Positions 14,579 to 47,936 of a stretch of 64,000 bases of DNA are shown here, one piece after another (the first letter of the stretch is position 1; each line of letters starts with the position of its first letter). The DNA is from a virus. The DNA lies in the IMG/VR virus record IMGVR_UViG_3300023237_000006, positions 47,926-111,925 of that record; one strand, given 5' to 3'. The position numbers and the translations under genes were made by a program. Under the pieces are notes generated by a model. That model did no database searches. It was not told the DNA's origin and saw only the letters and a list, made by a program, of their open reading frames with translations.

Positions 14579-15506
14579 CCCTGTTTAGTTGTATGGTGCA
14601 AGCTGTAAAGTTAATTTCTTGATCGACAACAAAAGCAGCTCTATATAAATGTTCAGATATAGATAATATGCAGTCCTGCTTTTTATCTGCCGTTATATCT
14701 GTCTTTTTAAATATTATATCTAACAATGTTTTAAGAAGCGTTTGATAGTCGTTTTGAAAATCTATCCCATGCTGAATAACATATGTTCTTAAGGCAAGAG
14801 GGTCGTCTAATTTACTATAAACCTTCTCAGCCACATGGTCTATAGTCTCTGACTTATTTATATTAAGTTTTCCTGATGAACTAAATTTCTGTAGTAGATT
14901 TATAGTTTTTCTTATATCTGGATAGATGCCTCTAACTAATTCTACAAATTTTAAATGATCTTCCTTTTCTACCGTTATATCTTCAGATTTTAATATAGAC
15001 ATACACCTCGTTACTATACCTGCAACTGGAGGAGATAAATCTATTTCTTGTACTCTACTCTGCAACGGAGCAATAATACGGTGCTTAAAATTAGCAGTTA
15101 AAATGAATTTTGTATACTCTGAGTATTCCTCCATTACATTCCGCAAAGCTCTCTGAGAATCAGGAGTGATACCGTCTGCTTCATCTAGTATAATCACCTT
15201 AATATTACCATCGATGCTCTTAGTACGAGCGAAGCCTATAATTTTGTTTCTAACAGTATCTATACCGCTCTCATCACTTGCATTTATATATAAATGCTGA
15301 CATTTCAAAATATCATTAACAATTACTTTAGCTACAGTAGTTTTACCTATCCCCGGAGGCCCCTGGAGTAGTAGATGGCTCATATTACCATCAATCGCTA
15401 TTTTATCTAGGACTTCTCGCGACGAATCGCTAAGAATAATTTCTTCTAATATTTTAGGCCGATATTTTTCAGCCCAAATATTTTTTATACCACCACTATT
15501 TTCCAT
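14565..15506 (-). CDS. 44: Clamp-loader ATPase, gp44/RFC small-subunit type
   Basis: 313 residues, close to T4 gp44 (319). It has an AAA+ Walker A GPPGIGKTT (49-57), Walker B ILDEAD (106-111), a sensor/arginine-finger region ANFKHRIIAPLQSR, and a C-terminal clamp-loader collar. gp44 with gp62 loads the sliding clamp on primed DNA; in T4 the loaded clamp also activates late transcription, which fits the late boxes here. gp62 and the clamp are not in the window. A late-type box (GGTAAATA) precedes the ATG by 6 nt inside the end of the dUTPase gene. Confidence 0.93.
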   Translation of the reverse strand: MENSGGIKNIWAEKYRPKILEEIILSDSSREVLDKIAIDGNMSHLLLQGPPGIGKTTVAKVIVNDILKCQHLYINASDESGIDTVRNKIIGFARTKSIDGNIKVIILDEADGITPDSQRALRNVMEEYSEYTKFILTANFKHRIIAPLQSRVQEIDLSPPVAGIVTRCMSILKSEDITVEKEDHLKFVELVRGIYPDIRKTINLLQKFSSSGKLNINKSETIDHVAEKVYSKLDDPLALRTYVIQHGIDFQNDYQTLLKTLLDIIFKKTDITADKKQDCILSISEHLYRAAFVVDQEINFTACTIQLNRAIFA

Positions 15507-15511
15507 ATTTT

Positions 15512-16051
15512 TTATTTACCTGTTGATCCAAACCCACCGTCACCACGATCGGAGACACTATCGCTAATACTAAAGGCACTAAAGGACATATTAGCATCAA
15601 TCAGTGGGTATACTACTATTTGAGCAATTCTATCCCCGATACTAACATTATAATCTACATCAGTAAAATTGTATAACTTTACTGCGAGATCTCCCCTATA
15701 TCCATTATCGATTATACCAAAATGTGGAGATATGCCATGTTTAAACCCTAAACCTGAGCGACCTTCAATTCTGAACCAGTACCCTGGTTGTATATATGCA
15801 ACTGTTAATCCTACATCAACAATCGCCGAGCCTACCTTATAATGCTTATTAATGTCTGTATACTTACTAAGTGGAACTTCCTCAATAGTTGATGCTCCCT
15901 GTGATCCTGCTGGTATAGTAGTATTAACAACAGATACCAGATCATATCCAGAGTCGCCGGTACCCGAATTACCCTCTTTATCAATACCTATATGACTCCT
16001 AATAGGTATTTCCGCCCTATCGTGTGTTTTCGTAAAAAATATATTAATCAT
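15512..16051 (-). CDS. dut: dUTPase (dUTP diphosphatase)
   Basis: 179 residues with all five trimeric dUTPase motifs: GDSGYDL (32-38), EGRSGLG (96-102), IDNGYRGDL (114-122), IGDRIAQ (138-144) and the C-terminal P-loop-like DRGDGGFGSTG (168-178). The enzyme hydrolyses dUTP to dUMP and pyrophosphate, keeping uracil out of phage DNA and feeding dTMP synthesis. The insert at 42-75 is longer than in minimal dUTPases. It sits 5 nt upstream of the clamp-loader gene in the same direction, which suggests a small replication operon. Confidence 0.95.
   Translation of the reverse strand: MINIFFTKTHDRAEIPIRSHIGIDKEGNSGTGDSGYDLVSVVNTTIPAGSQGASTIEEVPLSKYTDINKHYKVGSAIVDVGLTVAYIQPGYWFRIEGRSGLGFKHGISPHFGIIDNGYRGDLAVKLYNFTDVDYNVSIGDRIAQIVVYPLIDANMSFSAFSISDSVSDRGDGGFGSTGK
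15513..15520 (-). promoter_or_regulatory. Late-type promoter box (GGTAAATA)
   Basis: Minus-strand box within the 3' end of the dUTPase gene, 6 nt before the clamp-loader ATG. Confidence 0.5.
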
Positions 16052-16096
16052 CGTAATTTAATAATAGTATCAGAGTTGAAAAAGGCCACCAGTTAC

Positions 16097-16104
16097 ATTA
16101 AATA
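16097..16104 (+). promoter_or_regulatory. Late promoter (ATTAAATA)
   Basis: Plus-strand late box with the 5-nt spacer ATTTT to the GTG start at 16110; it decides that start. Confidence 0.7.
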
Positions 16105-16109
16105 ATTTT

Positions 16110-16580
16110 GTGAATGATGATAATACAGTAAAAGATTTACTAGCCCAGCTGCAAAGTGATCCCCCTAGGGATAGAGCCGAGGGTACAGATATAGATTTAG
16201 CTAGGGAAAATATTGAAGATTTTTTACTAGCAAATATAGGTAAATTGGTTCAGGGTGGCGTTGAATCCGTTCAGAATATGATTGACTTTACAGCATCAGC
16301 TCCCGATGCAGATAGTAGTGAATCTCTAGCATCGCTTATAAGGGCATCAGCCTCATCAATTGATATATTGCAAAAGATTATGATTTCTCGAGAGAAAAAT
16401 ATAAATTCCCGCGAAATAGCACAAATGAAGATAGACAGCTCATCAAAAAATATGGATAAAGAAATAACTGCGAAGCTGTTACTTAGCCGTGAGGAGGTTT
16501 TACGTCAACTTATATCTAAATCACGAGATCTTATTACTGAAGATGTGGTAGAAGCTGAAGTAGAGGAACTAAGTGATTAG
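16110..16580 (+). CDS. 16: Probable terminase small subunit, gp16-like
   Basis: 156 residues, acidic at both ends and strongly helical in the middle: a long helix around NIEDFLLANIGKLVQGGVES, then SLASLIRASASSIDILQKIMISREK. This two-helix pattern and the length match T4 gp16 and its marine relatives, which form a ring that recognises DNA and regulates gp17. GTG start set by the late box. It converges on, and overlaps by 12 nt, the gene on the opposite strand. The large terminase is 18 kb away at 34.4 kb. The assignment rests on helix pattern and size only. Confidence 0.5.
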   Translation: MNDDNTVKDLLAQLQSDPPRDRAEGTDIDLARENIEDFLLANIGKLVQGGVESVQNMIDFTASAPDADSSESLASLIRASASSIDILQKIMISREKNINSREIAQMKIDSSSKNMDKEITAKLLLSREEVLRQLISKSRDLITEDVVEAEVEELSD

Positions 16581-17891
16581 AGTTGGATTTGCATCTTCCC
16601 CACCTTGATCATTATTGATATTAGTTTTAGTACCAACTTCGCTTGAATCTGCGCCATCTTTAATAGTATCATCTCTATCTACTCGACTGAACTCATCATC
16701 AGCTGACCTTTCAGACATTACAACAAAATAATCTTCAGTTGGCTTATATATAAATGTAGTAACAGCCTTACCTCCCCTATGTACACTAGTAGCAGTGTCC
16801 TCCCCATGTGTATCAGGGTTTTCATCAATCATTAACTCTGCTGGTTTGTCATTAATTCTGTGATCAGGGTCGTGTGGGCTATATTTGAGAATAAAATCAC
16901 TAATCTCAAAGCATTTACTACCTACATCCTTTTCAGTGTTTTTCCTAATCTCTTCTCTAGCCTCTACCGCTGCATTAAAGGGGCTAATAGATCTCTCTAA
17001 AGAACCAACTATATTATGTGCTACATTTGCTAAAGTTTCAGCAAATGTATCTTCCTCTTCAACTTCCGATTCTACTCTCGCAGTATCTATTGCTTCTGGA
17101 TCTGACAGAGCATCAGCCGCATTTACTTGAAAACATAACCCTTGCATTTTCCGTTTCTGTCCAGCGGTAGATGAGTTCCATCGCTTTTCCGGAACCTCTA
17201 ATAGACCTACCGGTGATTTCTTAAACCACGCTTCTGCGATTGACTCACCGCCGACTAAGCTCTTAAGGTATGTGCCCTCTGCTTCATTTTTAAAAATCTC
17301 TATAGCGTCTGGCGACGGTATATCCCCACCTAACCAGTCCCTATACCCCTCTGAGTATTCTGCAACTCTATGCGCTCTATATTGCTTGTATTCTTTATCT
17401 CTAGATAGATAAGCAAGCCGATCTGTTGGTGGTTTTAGCGGGTTACACCTACCCCCGCCACCACCGCCACCACCACCGCCACCACCACCGCTGCTATCAC
17501 TCGTAGATTCTTCCTCAGTTTCTTCTACTGACCCGGAGCCCCCACCAGCGTTACCTGTATTATTAGCAGCTGTTGCAATTACATCTATTATAGGCGCCTC
17601 ACCTATTCTAAGACCGCCACTTTTTATATTATATGGTAGTCTATTATACTCTTCAGAATATTCAATTAGTACATCTGGTGGTAAATCTGACGATATTTCT
17701 AATAGATTAATTGCAAATTCAGTAGCTGCCTCATCTGGCGAGGTTGATGACATAATTGAATAAAATTGATTATTTAAATCGATTATGGTTTTAAATGCAC
17801 TTATTTCCTGACATAAGCCAAAACTATCTACATAATACGAATATGGTAAATGAGTAAATATGAATGGGAGAGCTGTTTTAGATATTATCAT
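16569..17891 (-). CDS. Baseplate-cluster protein with a 13-glycine linker
   Basis: 440 residues. A folded N-terminal part (about 1-115) is followed by an acidic/serine linker and 13 consecutive glycines, then a helical part (about 150-300) and an acidic C-terminus. The Gly run corresponds to a GGT/GGC-type repeat around 17453-17493. The start overlaps the stop of the upstream hub-like gene by 4 nt (ATGA), indicating translational coupling. Function unknown; the context is the baseplate hub. Confidence 0.75.
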   Translation of the reverse strand: MIISKTALPFIFTHLPYSYYVDSFGLCQEISAFKTIIDLNNQFYSIMSSTSPDEAATEFAINLLEISSDLPPDVLIEYSEEYNRLPYNIKSGGLRIGEAPIIDVIATAANNTGNAGGGSGSVEETEEESTSDSSGGGGGGGGGGGGGRCNPLKPPTDRLAYLSRDKEYKQYRAHRVAEYSEGYRDWLGGDIPSPDAIEIFKNEAEGTYLKSLVGGESIAEAWFKKSPVGLLEVPEKRWNSSTAGQKRKMQGLCFQVNAADALSDPEAIDTARVESEVEEEDTFAETLANVAHNIVGSLERSISPFNAAVEAREEIRKNTEKDVGSKCFEISDFILKYSPHDPDHRINDKPAELMIDENPDTHGEDTATSVHRGGKAVTTFIYKPTEDYFVVMSERSADDEFSRVDRDDTIKDGADSSEVGTKTNINNDQGGEDANPTLIT

Positions 17892-20586: not shown

Positions 20587-21462
20587 CTATACCTTATCGA
20601 AAAACTCAGCAACGTCCGTTGTAAGCTGTCTTAATGTAATGGATATATTATAAGCTTCTGGAATAATAGTATTAACACCGCCTATATCCATAGTTCTTCT
20701 TGTGCCTAGAAAATCAACTGAAATAGACTCTACATATCCAAACTTCATATAGGTATATCCAGGGACTGTTACTTCATATATACACGGAGGTACAAAGGCG
20801 CTACGGTCCAATCGCTTAACACAATTTTGAAATAAAAGTAGCCATACAAGATCGTAATTACTTTGAATGTCTTCTTCATTTAGCGTATTGAGTAGCGGAA
20901 ATGAAAAGCTGACTGATTGGGTACTACTGCCAGGATCATAAAATCTCGGCTTTAAAAGAAATACCCCCGGCTCAGTTAAGGTTTTAACGAGCTGGTTTGT
21001 CCCAATAGAAATCTTCTTAAATGCATTATATAGATCACTCGCTGCATCCATTAGCCCGTCACCTTTATATGTTTCCGCAAAATCAGCTGATTTTGTAAAT
21101 ACAGGTCCTTCATTATAATACGGTAATGTGTATATAAACCCTGTAGGCTCACTATCATATAGCCCATCAAAAGGATCGTCAGAGTCTGGAATATCTGCTG
21201 CTGACATTATATCTTTCAGTTTACCCTTTACTCCAGCTGGACAGAGTTCTAAAATCTTATTAAAGCTACCTGATGCAACAGCTGTTGAATATTTAGCTTG
21301 AGTAACAATAGAGCTTTGCAGTATTTCTGATTCCTTTAATCTAATTTCTGGAATGTCTATAGATTTAACGGTAGAATATTTACCTATAATGTTAACAAGA
21401 CCGCTACCTGACGGCCTTGCTGACATTTTACCTCCAGAAGATTCTATTGTATATAGGCTCAT
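20587..21462 (-). CDS. Baseplate tube-cap/initiator protein (gp48/gp54 family), copy 2
   Basis: 291 residues. Shared blocks with the next gene are VFLLKPRFYDPG / SFSFPLLNT in the middle and YEVTVPGYTYMKFGYVESI / TRRTMD...IIPEAYNISITL at the C-terminus. In the T4 baseplate two such related proteins stack between hub and tail tube. The ATG at 21462 overlaps the tape-measure stop, so translation is probably coupled to it; there is no late box of its own. Confidence 0.75.
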   Translation of the reverse strand: MSLYTIESSGGKMSARPSGSGLVNIIGKYSTVKSIDIPEIRLKESEILQSSIVTQAKYSTAVASGSFNKILELCPAGVKGKLKDIMSAADIPDSDDPFDGLYDSEPTGFIYTLPYYNEGPVFTKSADFAETYKGDGLMDAASDLYNAFKKISIGTNQLVKTLTEPGVFLLKPRFYDPGSSTQSVSFSFPLLNTLNEEDIQSNYDLVWLLLFQNCVKRLDRSAFVPPCIYEVTVPGYTYMKFGYVESISVDFLGTRRTMDIGGVNTIIPEAYNISITLRQLTTDVAEFFDKV

Positions 21463-30041: not shown

Positions 30042-30049
30042 ATTAAATA
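30042..30049 (+). promoter_or_regulatory. Late promoter (ATTAAATA)
   Basis: Plus-strand late box with spacer CTATAA to the ATG at 30056; ATTAAATACTAT is very close to the full T4 late consensus. Confidence 0.75.
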
Positions 30050-30055
30050 CTATAA

Positions 30056-30529
30056 ATGGACAACGAAACTAATTTAATTTGGGAGTCATATAATAGAGAT
30101 GCACCACATGACGATATTATATCGTTTATTCGTGATAATTCGGAGCGTCGCTCTGACGGAAAGCATAAATTAGGAGAATATTGGATATCTATACAGCCAA
30201 ACTCTAATCAGATAAGAGTTTTGCTCCCACGAGGTGAAGGTAAAGAATTTTATAAGCTATCTGATCCTGCTACATTAGAATTTTTAAAGGGCATCCAGGT
30301 TGATACAGACACACCTGTGAACGAAGATGGAGAAACATTTGAAAGTGCGAGATCTTATGAGGAAGATGAGATAATTGCGAGTGAATTAGTAGCATATGTA
30401 TTATCTATAAGTGATCTGGGACAATTTAAAGCTGATGAAGCGATTAAATCAGCTTTTAATGTATTATTAAACGGTGATGAAAATATTATAGATATTACAG
30501 CTTTTAGGAATGCTCAAGCCGGCAGATAA
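30056..30529 (+). CDS. Candidate capsid internal protein with N-terminal targeting tag (157 aa)
   Basis: 157 residues. The first ten, MDNETNLIWE, are identical to those of the next gene, and the 30 coding bases are identical too. Similarity then falls to a residual S/A-Y/F-N and disappears. The tag ends in I-W-E, matching the (I/L)-x-E cleavage consensus of T4 prohead protease gp21, and T4 internal proteins carry a 10-residue capsid-targeting sequence that gp21 removes after Glu10. The mature part would be an acidic protein with no recognised domain. A late box 6 nt upstream of the ATG fits packaging into the head. Function inferred. Confidence 0.6.
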   Translation: MDNETNLIWESYNRDAPHDDIISFIRDNSERRSDGKHKLGEYWISIQPNSNQIRVLLPRGEGKEFYKLSDPATLEFLKGIQVDTDTPVNEDGETFESARSYEEDEIIASELVAYVLSISDLGQFKADEAIKSAFNVLLNGDENIIDITAFRNAQAGR

Positions 30530-30547
30530 TTAATATAATAAGATTTT

Positions 30548-30555
30548 AATAAATA
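30548..30555 (+). promoter_or_regulatory. Late promoter (AATAAATA)
   Basis: Plus-strand late box with 5-nt spacer CGAAT to the ATG at 30561. Confidence 0.75.
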
Positions 30556-30560
30556 CGAAT

Positions 30561-31151
30561 ATGGACAACGAAACTAATTTAATTTGGGAGGCATTTAATG
30601 GGAGATCAAATGAGGTCTCACTAGCTGATGAAATATATAGTATATTAGAAGATATATTTGTCACCAATGCTGATAGCCCTGGTGATGCATATATCGATGC
30701 TGGTAATGATATTCAGCAGATGCTCAAAAAAGCGATGATATATTCTGATACGCAGACTGTCATTGATATGTACAATGAAAATATAAAGATCGCAGTTGAG
30801 TGGTTTAATCAATCTGGTCTCCCTGGTTCTCCTATAGATCGAGGTAGTGTCTTAGAGCAAGTGTTTGATGATATATATAAAGTAAACAATGAGAATGAAG
30901 AGTCTGATGGAATAGCTACAGGCGCCTTCACAGATTTCTTCGATAAATACTGCGATGAAAACGAAGCTGGGCAATTTGTACCAAAATCCGGAGTTGTTAT
31001 TTCTATTGAGGGATTTGATATTGTTAATATTATATCGTTAAGTGAGAATAAAGATACAGTAACTATTGAGGGTCTATCCGATAGTAAATATTCATATTTG
31101 GAGACTGCAGTTGATGATTTTATAACTCATGCAACAATTATAAGTAATTAG
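30561..31151 (+). CDS. Candidate capsid internal protein with N-terminal targeting tag (196 aa)
   Basis: 196 residues starting with the same ten residues MDNETNLIWE as the preceding gene, then diverging (AFNGRSNE...). The remainder is acidic: helices to about residue 110, then a short beta-containing C-terminal part (VVISIEGFDIVNIISLSEN). No named domain. As for its neighbour, the tag looks like a removable capsid-targeting peptide cleaved after Glu10. Own late promoter 5 nt before the ATG. A bidirectional terminator follows. Confidence 0.6.
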   Translation: MDNETNLIWEAFNGRSNEVSLADEIYSILEDIFVTNADSPGDAYIDAGNDIQQMLKKAMIYSDTQTVIDMYNENIKIAVEWFNQSGLPGSPIDRGSVLEQVFDDIYKVNNENEESDGIATGAFTDFFDKYCDENEAGQFVPKSGVVISIEGFDIVNIISLSENKDTVTIEGLSDSKYSYLETAVDDFITHATIISN

Positions 31152-36479: not shown

Positions 36480-37316
36480 ATGTCCACAATTGACCACAAA
36501 GATATAGCTTCAATTTACTCCCAAATGGGTGCCAACTTTATTAATGAAAAGGTTGAGGATCAATCCTTACCTGATGATACAAAGTCAACATCTAAGAGTA
36601 AAAAGGTTAAAGGTAATGCCGGTATTGGTAATAAGGAAAAGTGCCCAACCAAGACTGACGGCTATAAAGCCCCAGAAGAAGCTGAAGATAAATATAATTC
36701 TAGTGCAAAAGTACATAAAGAATCTAAAACTAATAAAAAGGTTAAAAAAGATAAGAACTTTTCCAAAGAAGGCATAAATAGTTATATGAGCGGTAAAAGT
36801 TTATTTGATGAATTATATGAAGAAGTGATGTCCGATGATGAGGATATTTTAGGTATCGGCGGCGATGATGACGGTGAGGGCAATTTTGGAGACGAATTTG
36901 ATTCTGAAGCCGGTGAGGGAGAAGTTACCCTAACACTACCCAAAGAAGTAGCTGAGCAACTTTTTGATCTCTTAGCAGGTCAGTTAGACGACACTGGTGA
37001 AGAAGAGGATGATGGTGAGCTGGATCTTGACGGTGATGAGATGGATGAAGATGATCAGTTTTCATTCGGAGAAGGTGTCGATTCAGAGACCATCCCAGAA
37101 CCATCGAAAGATTCTGACAAATCACGACAGGTGGTTGCGCACAAAGACCTTGTAGCCTCTGGCGATGGTAAACAAACTACTACTACTAAGGTTGGCGATG
37201 ATGGTGATCATGGTCATGCTATTGTAAACGGTAAGCATAAAAATTCTGATAAAGCTCGTCACCGAGTTCGTGCGAAGCGGGGAGTAACTCCAGGTAGTCA
37301 AGCATTTAGTAAATAA
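36480..37316 (+). CDS. Probable prohead core (scaffold) protein
   Basis: 278 residues of extreme charge. Residues 1-110 are basic (KSKKVKGNAG, KTNKKVKKDKN); 112-205 very acidic with DDEDILGIGGDDDGEG and a helix VTLTLPKEVAEQLFDLLAGQ; the C-terminus basic again. The joint SLFDELYEEVM contains L-Y-E, a match to the (I/L)-x-E consensus of gp21-type prohead proteases. Such acidic, protease-cut proteins form or fill the T4-like prohead core. Late promoter 5 nt upstream, terminator just downstream. Assignment by composition and motif. Confidence 0.55.
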   Translation: MSTIDHKDIASIYSQMGANFINEKVEDQSLPDDTKSTSKSKKVKGNAGIGNKEKCPTKTDGYKAPEEAEDKYNSSAKVHKESKTNKKVKKDKNFSKEGINSYMSGKSLFDELYEEVMSDDEDILGIGGDDDGEGNFGDEFDSEAGEGEVTLTLPKEVAEQLFDLLAGQLDDTGEEEDDGELDLDGDEMDEDDQFSFGEGVDSETIPEPSKDSDKSRQVVAHKDLVASGDGKQTTTTKVGDDGDHGHAIVNGKHKNSDKARHRVRAKRGVTPGSQAFSK

Positions 37317-37381: not shown

Positions 37382-37987
37382 ATGAAAGAAAAGGTCTTTT
37401 TTATATCTCCACCGAAATCTGGAAGTAAATCTTACTCATGGGCTCTAAAAACTCTTGGGTGGAATTCAATTCATAATTATATAGAGCTCCCGGTTAGAAC
37501 CGAATTAAGAGATTGGGAGTATTTTAGAAATTCGGAATATAATGCATTTTTTGATCTAGGGTGGATTCACTGGCGAGAGCTATTGAATGAATTTACCGAC
37601 TCTAAATTTATAGTATCCTACCGAGACCCTTTTGATTTAGCGTTTTCCACATTTAATCACAATCAAAGTCTCTTACACGCGGGTAAAAAAGTATCCCCTA
37701 TACTACAAAATGCCCCAAAATTTGATTATAGTGGCATTGCAACCGGCGCAAGGCTATTTTATACTGAGATTTTTGAGAGGATAATAAGCGGGGAGCTTTC
37801 TGATAGAGTATTAGTTACTAGACCCGAGATGGGTTGGGATCACCTGTGTAGATTTTTAGAAGTTGATGTACCAGATGTGCCATTTCCGCACTACCATGAT
37901 AAGACAAACATCTATAAGGTTATAACTACTGGCTGCGAGCCACCACCACAAGCGTTTCCGAATGTTATTATCGGAGATAAAACATAG
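37382..37987 (+). CDS. Sulfotransferase-like protein
   Basis: 201 residues. The 5'-phosphosulfate loop is PPKSGSKS (10-17), and the 3'-phosphate-binding segment is SKFIVSYRDPFDLAFSTF (74-91), the order and spacing of PAPS-dependent sulfotransferases. Further C-terminal family-like stretch: DVPDVPFPHYHD. It would move sulfate from PAPS to a sugar, lipid or peptide. The acceptor is unknown. Shorter than typical bacterial members (250-300). No promoter is evident; it starts right after a terminator T-run. The protein is followed by late neck genes. Confidence 0.75.
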   Translation: MKEKVFFISPPKSGSKSYSWALKTLGWNSIHNYIELPVRTELRDWEYFRNSEYNAFFDLGWIHWRELLNEFTDSKFIVSYRDPFDLAFSTFNHNQSLLHAGKKVSPILQNAPKFDYSGIATGARLFYTEIFERIISGELSDRVLVTRPEMGWDHLCRFLEVDVPDVPFPHYHDKTNIYKVITTGCEPPPQAFPNVIIGDKT

Positions 37988-43727: not shown

Positions 43728-44951
43728 ATGAATAAGCGAAGTTTTTTATCTATAATGGGCGGATTAACATTCCCTACAATTTTAAATGCGCAATATGGTA
43801 AAGCCGTAAAAGCTAAGAATATAATTTATATATATTTGGACGGGGGTATATCATCTCAAGAGACCTGGAACCCTAAACCGTTTGCGGACGCTGAATTTAG
43901 AGGCCCGTATGAAGCTATTAAGACTAAGACAGACGGTTTATTGTTTTCAGATCGCTTCCCCCTACTTGCGAAAGAGACTGACAAATTTTCTGTGATTAAC
44001 AGCATGACTCATGGTCAGGCCGCGCACGAGAGGGGTACTGAGTACATGTTTACAGGCTATAAGCCCAGCCCCGCCATTAAATATCCATCTGTAGGATCTA
44101 TAGTCTCTCACGAACTCGGATTTAGAAATTCTCTGCCTGCTTATGTTTCAGTCCCAGTAGAGCAAAACGAATTTGCGAGCACGGGTTTTCTCTCAGCTAA
44201 GTTTGGCTCTTTTAGCCTTGGGGCTGACCCAGCTGCAAAAGACTTCAAGGTTAGAGATTTAAAGAATGGAGTATCAAACAGAAAAAGGGATTTACTAGAG
44301 CTCGTGGATTCTAAATTTAAGAGAGAAATAAAATCCGATAATGTAATTGCGATGGATAAATTTTATGATCAAGCATTTGATTTAATGTCTTCTGAGGCAG
44401 CAATGCAGGCATTTGATATATCGAAGGAATCAGAAACGATGAAGGATATGTATGGGAAAACTCAGCCAGGGCAAAGGCTTTTGATTTCTCGACGACTTGT
44501 AGAGGCGGGGGTACGAATTGTTAAGGTAAATTATGGCGGTTGGGACAATCATGACAAGATAAAAAACAGTTTCGATGCGAAGGCACCTGATCTAGATAAA
44601 GCTCTCTCTGCACTCTTCACCGATCTTGCAGCGCGAGGTATTTTAGATGAGACGATGGTAATTGTAACTAGTGAATTTGGCCGTACTCCGAAGATTAATA
44701 AGACGGCAGGTCGCGATCACTGGCCTAGAAACTTTTCTACTATTATCGGCGGCGGTGGTATTAATAATGGGATGGTTTACGGTACTACAGACTCCATATC
44801 TAACGAAGTGGAGGAGAGTCCAGTATCTCCAGAGGATTTATTTGCGACAATGTTTCATCTTGCTGGTATAGATTCAACAAAGGAGTTAATGACTCCAGAT
44901 CTCCGACCGATAAAAATAAGTAAGGGGAACATTATCTCTGAATTAATATAG
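43728..44951 (+). CDS. DUF1501 (sulfatase/alkaline-phosphatase-superfamily) protein
   Basis: 407 residues. N-terminal MNKRSFLSIMGGLTFPTILNA is a signal peptide with a Tat-like KRSFL start. Then DUF1501 hallmarks: IYIYLDGGISSQETWNPKP (34-51), NSMTHGQAAHERGTEYMF, VKVNYGGWDNHDKI, VIVTSEFGRTPKIN and GRDHWPRNFSTIIGGGGI, with metal-binding Asp/His residues as in the alkaline-phosphatase/sulfatase superfamily. The reaction of DUF1501 proteins is not established; exported hydrolase activity on sulfated or phosphorylated polymers is plausible. Late promoter 6 nt upstream. Rare in phages as far as I know; likely acquired from a bacterium. Confidence 0.85.
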   Translation: MNKRSFLSIMGGLTFPTILNAQYGKAVKAKNIIYIYLDGGISSQETWNPKPFADAEFRGPYEAIKTKTDGLLFSDRFPLLAKETDKFSVINSMTHGQAAHERGTEYMFTGYKPSPAIKYPSVGSIVSHELGFRNSLPAYVSVPVEQNEFASTGFLSAKFGSFSLGADPAAKDFKVRDLKNGVSNRKRDLLELVDSKFKREIKSDNVIAMDKFYDQAFDLMSSEAAMQAFDISKESETMKDMYGKTQPGQRLLISRRLVEAGVRIVKVNYGGWDNHDKIKNSFDAKAPDLDKALSALFTDLAARGILDETMVIVTSEFGRTPKINKTAGRDHWPRNFSTIIGGGGINNGMVYGTTDSISNEVEESPVSPEDLFATMFHLAGIDSTKELMTPDLRPIKISKGNIISELI

Positions 44952-47911: not shown

Positions 47912-47936
47912 TTATATCTTAAGGGGATACTGTTTA

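Follow-up and report, generated by a model that had tools for sequence, protein, structure and literature searches.

T4 Alt is the classic case of an effector that a phage injects into its host, and proteins of this sort are normally found only via proteomics of cultivated virions. Among the closest described systems, that of T4 relies on a short N-terminal capsid-targeting sequence (CTS), defined by experiment: ten N-terminal residues of the internal protein IPIII are enough to target it, and positions 8 and 10 matter for processing (PMC9026906). In the giant phages SPN3US and phiKZ, the N-termini of head proteins injected with the DNA are processed by the prohead protease (PMC5694885), and domains of the ART-PolyVal type have been predicted in packaged, injected phage proteins (PMC5512222). 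Here, we describe a 64,000-nucleotide stretch of viral DNA (hereinafter the window; positions 47,926 to 111,925 of the IMG/VR record IMGVR_UViG_3300023237_000006), in which two adjacent plus-strand genes separated by 31 nt (genes 1 and 2, encoding P1 and P2) share an N-terminal peptide, MDNETNLIWE, variants of which are present on numerous unrelated genes of related phages. This tag probably serves to load proteins into the head for injection in uncultivated large T4-like phages; more specifically, we consider it likely that the peptide common to the two N-termini acts as a capsid-targeting propeptide in the manner of the T4 CTS, and that the proteins bearing it are cut, packaged and delivered to the host.

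The original prediction, made from the letters of the window, held that both genes start with this peptide encoded by 30 identical nucleotides, that the identity stops at Glu10, and that the mature parts are unrelated and lack a known domain. The first of these is confirmed: all 30 of 30 nt are identical between the two open reading frame (ORF) starts, and this is not due to chance, because the 30-mer, even with up to three mismatches, occurs at these two sites only in the 111,925-b contig to which the window belongs (G000, an incomplete fragment of ~112 kb), while a reversed control gave none. Thus, the genome-wide search that had been advised for the same 30 nt yielded no third site in the contig; however, the core of the tag, LIWE[A/S]Y, is present on a third gene beyond the window (MNDKELIYESYKSL.., G000 20793-21452, minus strand). 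Elsewhere in IMG/VR the 30-mer is found solely in a contig of almost the same phage. Given the same peptide and the codon usage of the contig, independent copies would agree in all codons with P=0.003; hence, the tag appears to have been copied recently or kept alike by conversion. The claim that the identity ends at Glu10 stands for exact DNA identity but not otherwise, as the repeat finder recovers a direct repeat of 39 nt at 95% and the peptides go on as S-Y-N and A-F-N, respectively. Past the repeat the prediction is borne out, the mature parts having no BLASTP similarity to each other and neither P1 nor P2 having a PHROG or Pfam match in profile searches. A search of IMG/VR for their direct relatives returned one near-identical contig and nothing else. 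P2 was also considered as a homologue of the tagged ORF L020:56-361 (E=4e-7 with the tag, no match without it) and rejected as such; since the match rests mainly on the tag, this ORF is at most a possible distant homologue.

This arrangement parallels that of T4 ipII and ipIII, which in our control are identical over their first 30 nt, the stretch encoding the known 10-residue CTS, before the identity declines (78% at 45 nt, 67% at 60 nt): likewise, the adjacent window genes share 30 identical nucleotides and differ in their mature parts. Further, both possess I8-W9-E10, a gp21-type [L/I]-x-E site, and thus have Ile at position 8 and Glu at position 10, like the T4 CTS.

Beyond the pair, the core LIWE[A/S]Y is observed 4-9 residues past the start codon on ~30 proteins from ~12 IMG/VR contigs. 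A degenerate search of IMG/VR with ELIWEAY returned 19 stretches, and in most contigs the matches within substantial ORFs lie 4-9 residues from the start codon, on different proteins; the relatives L018 and L020 were retrieved by their terminase and not by the tag. The core is concentrated at the N-terminus in the examined contigs, with 24 matches there as against 0.6 expected, and 11 elsewhere. Once the tag is stripped, a single similar pair remains among 30 proteins; hence, a short N-terminal peptide is common to proteins with unrelated mature parts, just as with the CTS. The 236 kb relative G012 has at least 13 tagged genes, mostly beginning MND-x-x-LIWE, and most of these were not the cause of its retrieval; G018 (29 kb) has four, starting with MKTEEELIWE. 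In these two contigs the conserved residues of the tag use differing synonymous codons, which implies that it is the peptide, rather than a signal in the DNA, that is under selection. The cargo differs between close relatives. Among the terminase-selected contigs, L020 has the tagged genes MDNESELIWEAYSQ.. and MKQDAELIWEAYTS.., and L018 the tagged gene MNNRDTELIWEAYSS.., close to the tail sheath gene, which the window pair similarly adjoins or lies near. Motif matches in a TnpB-like protein (G012:10985), at G000:65813 and in the IIFEKY family of G006/G007/G011 were discarded as false, and those at G016:21460 and G009:30851 were handled as uncertain.

Separate N-terminal themes were also noted in these phages. 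The late genes of G012 include a second N-terminal class (MKFDDIVKQILED, MKFKDLVNHILKE, MQKFNQLMEEILTES and MNFDKLVKRLTEAP), nearer to the T4 MKTYQEFIAE pattern, which may be another targeting class. A gene family represented at window positions 36480-37316 has an N-terminus varying on the theme of the tag (MSTIDHKDIASIYSQMGANFINEK here, MNHNDIAGIYEAFQTTFLTEAKK in G009); its conserved F-[L/I]-x-E may serve the prohead protease as a cleavage site.

The tagged genes are strongly associated with a T4-type late-promoter element: TAAATA is found at most 22 nt from the start in 24 of the 29 tagged genes compared with 231 of 905 other genes (p=4e-10), and in both window genes it lies 5-6 nt before the ATG. 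This association points to late expression of the tagged genes. Many genes have the element at this distance of 5-6 nt from the start codon (e.g., window 30044-30055), throughout the contig and in the relatives G012, G014 and G006, with 130 + 48 of ~280 occurrences upstream of starts being at the 5-6 nt spacing; if the T4 spacing of late start sites holds, the late mRNAs would be leaderless, beginning at the ATG.

The protease expected of such a system is encoded by relatives of the window phage. G012, which shares 57 of 130 gene products with G000 in largely collinear order, codes for a prohead protease of family S77, the gp21 type (Pfam E=3e-28), to which the catalytic His85 and Ser140 of T4 gp21 align, in addition to gp22-like and gp23 genes. 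G019 likewise encodes an S77 prohead protease, and its gene order is gp21, gp22-like and gp23 followed directly by a tagged gene. The search for a gp21-like protease that the original prediction had proposed thus succeeded in these two relatives but not on the incomplete window contig.

The domains found among the tagged proteins of relatives are of the kinds that appear typical of injected phage effectors. One tagged protein of G018 is an ART-PolyVal ADP-ribosyltransferase (PF18760, 7.5e-15), and others are a GNAT acetyltransferase (1.7e-8) and a PcfJ-like protein (4e-7), with weaker matches to a zinc peptidase, PARP and ParB-like domains. With ART-PolyVal homologues from other phages, the alignment does not begin until residue ~12-23, and the two homologues whose starts were inspected, from pT24 and Dfl-JY45, are without the tag; the tag therefore looks like an addition. 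The ART-PolyVal domain in G018 and several other cargo domains of the same kinds link these proteins to the polyvalent proteins (Iyer et al. 2017; PMC5512222). In contrast to the latter, they are mostly small, single-domain and individually tagged, rather than parts of one large multidomain polypeptide.

Taken with the T4 ipII/ipIII-like layout, the tag on many unrelated late genes, the S77 protease of relatives and the effector-type cargo support the reading of the tag that the original prediction had advanced for P1 and P2; that these two proteins are docked, cleaved, packaged and injected is what we infer from the genes. Briefly, we propose the following mechanism. The tagged genes would be transcribed late, and the tag, M-x(3-6)-[E/N]-L-I-W-E-[A/S]-[Y/F], would dock the protein onto the prohead core. 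The S77 protease might then cut after [L/I]-x-E, most simply at the Glu of the core (I-W-E|[A/S]), while some members would be cut at a site 5-20 residues beyond it. Once matured, the protein would stay alongside the DNA inside the head until its delivery into the host. These phages would reuse the tag as a module for varied cargo, some of it with effector enzyme domains, and the duplicated tag of the window would be a recent copy between neighbouring genes.

On this reading, the system resembles that of T4 in its S77 protease (here in relatives) and in its unrelated cargo including an ADP-ribosyltransferase (PMC9026906). It departs from T4 in its LIWE[A/S]Y core as against F-I-A-E-A, in the far larger number of genes that bear the tag in one genome (no fewer than 13 in G012), and in the late-promoter element placed 5-6 nt before the ATG of most tagged genes. 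All that the tag has in common with the T4 CTS itself in sequence is the initial Met and the spacing of I-x-E; because the peptides otherwise differ, it is better said to work like a CTS than to belong to that sequence family, and it appears to be a new sequence variant of the T4 device, used on unusually many genes. In the papers searched, the letters of the motif gave no relevant match. P1 and P2 match no Pfam or PHROG profile that would make them homologues of IPI, and a comparable anti-restriction role is only an analogy. As in SPN3US and phiKZ, the N-termini of proteins injected with the DNA would be processed by a prohead protease. However, the propeptides of those phages are mostly far longer, often >100 residues, whereas the tag spans ~10-25 residues and is shared almost word for word.

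Several observations weigh against the proposed capsid-targeting function. The conserved core runs past the presumed scissile Glu into [A/S][Y/F], and in 14 of the 30 tagged proteins another [L/I]xE follows within 18 residues, compared with 21% of untagged genes; the cut site is for these reasons uncertain, and cleavage exactly after Glu10, as originally predicted, is plausible. In favour of the proposed function, by contrast, the downstream site is found in 7 of the 8 proteins whose core departs from [L/I]WE[A/S] as against 7 of the 22 canonical ones (p=0.012, for classes chosen post hoc, after seeing the data). A reasonable model would be that the core targets, with the cut at the core Glu if a small residue is next and downstream otherwise. 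P1 and P2 are acidic (isoelectric point, pI, 4.5 and 4.1), unlike the mostly basic T4 internal proteins (7.9-9.7), and have no recognisable domain; their AlphaFold models, predicted without a useful alignment, are unusable, with a confidence score (predicted local distance difference test, pLDDT) of ~44. Neither a gp21 protease nor gp23, the major capsid protein, is detectable on the window contig, and the gp23/gp21 family searches of the terminase-selected relatives, all fragments, gave no match. The window record is incomplete, however, and relatives carry both genes. None of 13 reference phages, among them T4, marine cyanophages and a pelagiphage, has the tag (one match in Cr30 was rejected as not being at a gene start). 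Finally, the tag counts are inflated in some contigs, as these were picked by the tag itself.

The acidity of P1 and P2, which makes a role in the prohead core possible, raises the alternative that the tag docks onto this core but that its cargo consists of proteins assisting the core or scaffold, as T4 gp67/gp68 do, which are broken down or kept in the head rather than injected. Several further tagged proteins are short and acidic, and the tagged gene directly after gp21-gp22-gp23 would suit such a role; yet, other tagged proteins have enzyme domains of no scaffold role (ART, GNAT, metallopeptidase-like) and the cargo varies among close relatives, making this explanation unlikely, if the best of the alternatives. 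Less probable still is that the tag stays uncut and docks its protein onto a different late structure (tail, baseplate or membrane) or a phage protein partner, the I-x-E being coincidental. The conserved residues beyond the Glu and the position of the window pair and of some relatives' tagged genes beside or near the tail sheath gene could be accommodated by it, but enzyme cargo and the T4-like layout better suit the head, and the small residue after the Glu of canonical cores, together with the second [L/I]xE nearly always found in non-canonical ones, speaks against it. The adjacency of the genes and their identity over 30 nt might also suggest a tandem duplication, with P1 and P2 as diverged paralogues retaining a remnant start, or a ribosome or late-promoter signal in the DNA, but this is very improbable, given 30 exact nucleotides beside no detectable downstream similarity and the same peptide in other synonymous codons on unrelated genes in other genomes, the last of which led us to reject a DNA-level signal as the cause of the shared start.

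If the tag is indeed a capsid-targeting propeptide, candidate injected effectors or anti-defence proteins could be listed from metagenomes by a recognisable label, including those without a known domain such as P1 and P2. It would also indicate that the loading system known from T4 capsid targeting is general and diverse in sequence, and would provide a new peptide with which foreign proteins could be packaged into phage heads. We lean, with some reserve, towards the broader view that LIWE[A/S]Y is an unreported capsid-targeting code, serving as a general loading label in an uncultivated clade of T4-like jumbo phages with a large, interchangeable set of injected effectors per genome (a dozen or more in G012) that is readable from sequence, and that P1 and P2 represent new effector families.

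Table 1. Coordinates of the tagged gene pair and its associated elements in the window
Feature	Position	Strand	Basis and remarks
T4 late-promoter-like element ATTAAATA	30042..30049	+	sequence; 6 nt upstream of gene 1 ATG
Gene 1 (P1), 157 aa, tagged late protein	30056..30529	+	ORF; post-tag pI 4.5
Tag copy 1, MDNETNLIWE-SYN	30056..30094	+	39-nt direct repeat; putative cut after Glu10, codon 30083-30085
T4 late-promoter-like element AATAAATA	30548..30555	+	sequence; 5 nt upstream of gene 2 ATG
Gene 2 (P2), 196 aa, tagged late protein	30561..31151	+	ORF; post-tag pI 4.1
Tag copy 2, MDNETNLIWE-AFN	30561..30599	+	putative cut after Glu10, codon 30588-30590; alternative [L/I]xE after Glu30

Some other features of the window and its relatives deserve mention. 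A search of bacterial genomes for the host recovered no relative. At 43728-44951, the window encodes a DUF1501/sulfatase-like protein (Pfam E=1e-104) with 46-49% identity to counterparts in G012 and G019; the start of the window protein, MNKRSFLSIMG, resembles by eye a twin-arginine (Tat) signal, and the protein is an unusual cargo for a phage and possibly a clue to the host. A protein with a sulfotransferase domain (PF17784, E=5e-20) is encoded at 37382-37987, between structural genes. In G000 the DNA polymerase is split over two ORFs that lie outside the window (14600-16141 and 16189-17325), while being a single ORF in G012. Judged by eye, the G012 portal gene (79351-81588) contains an intein-like insertion, and the terminase ORFs of L020 (7850-11197) and L019 (438-2555) show interruptions or enlargement for which inteins or introns are the probable cause.
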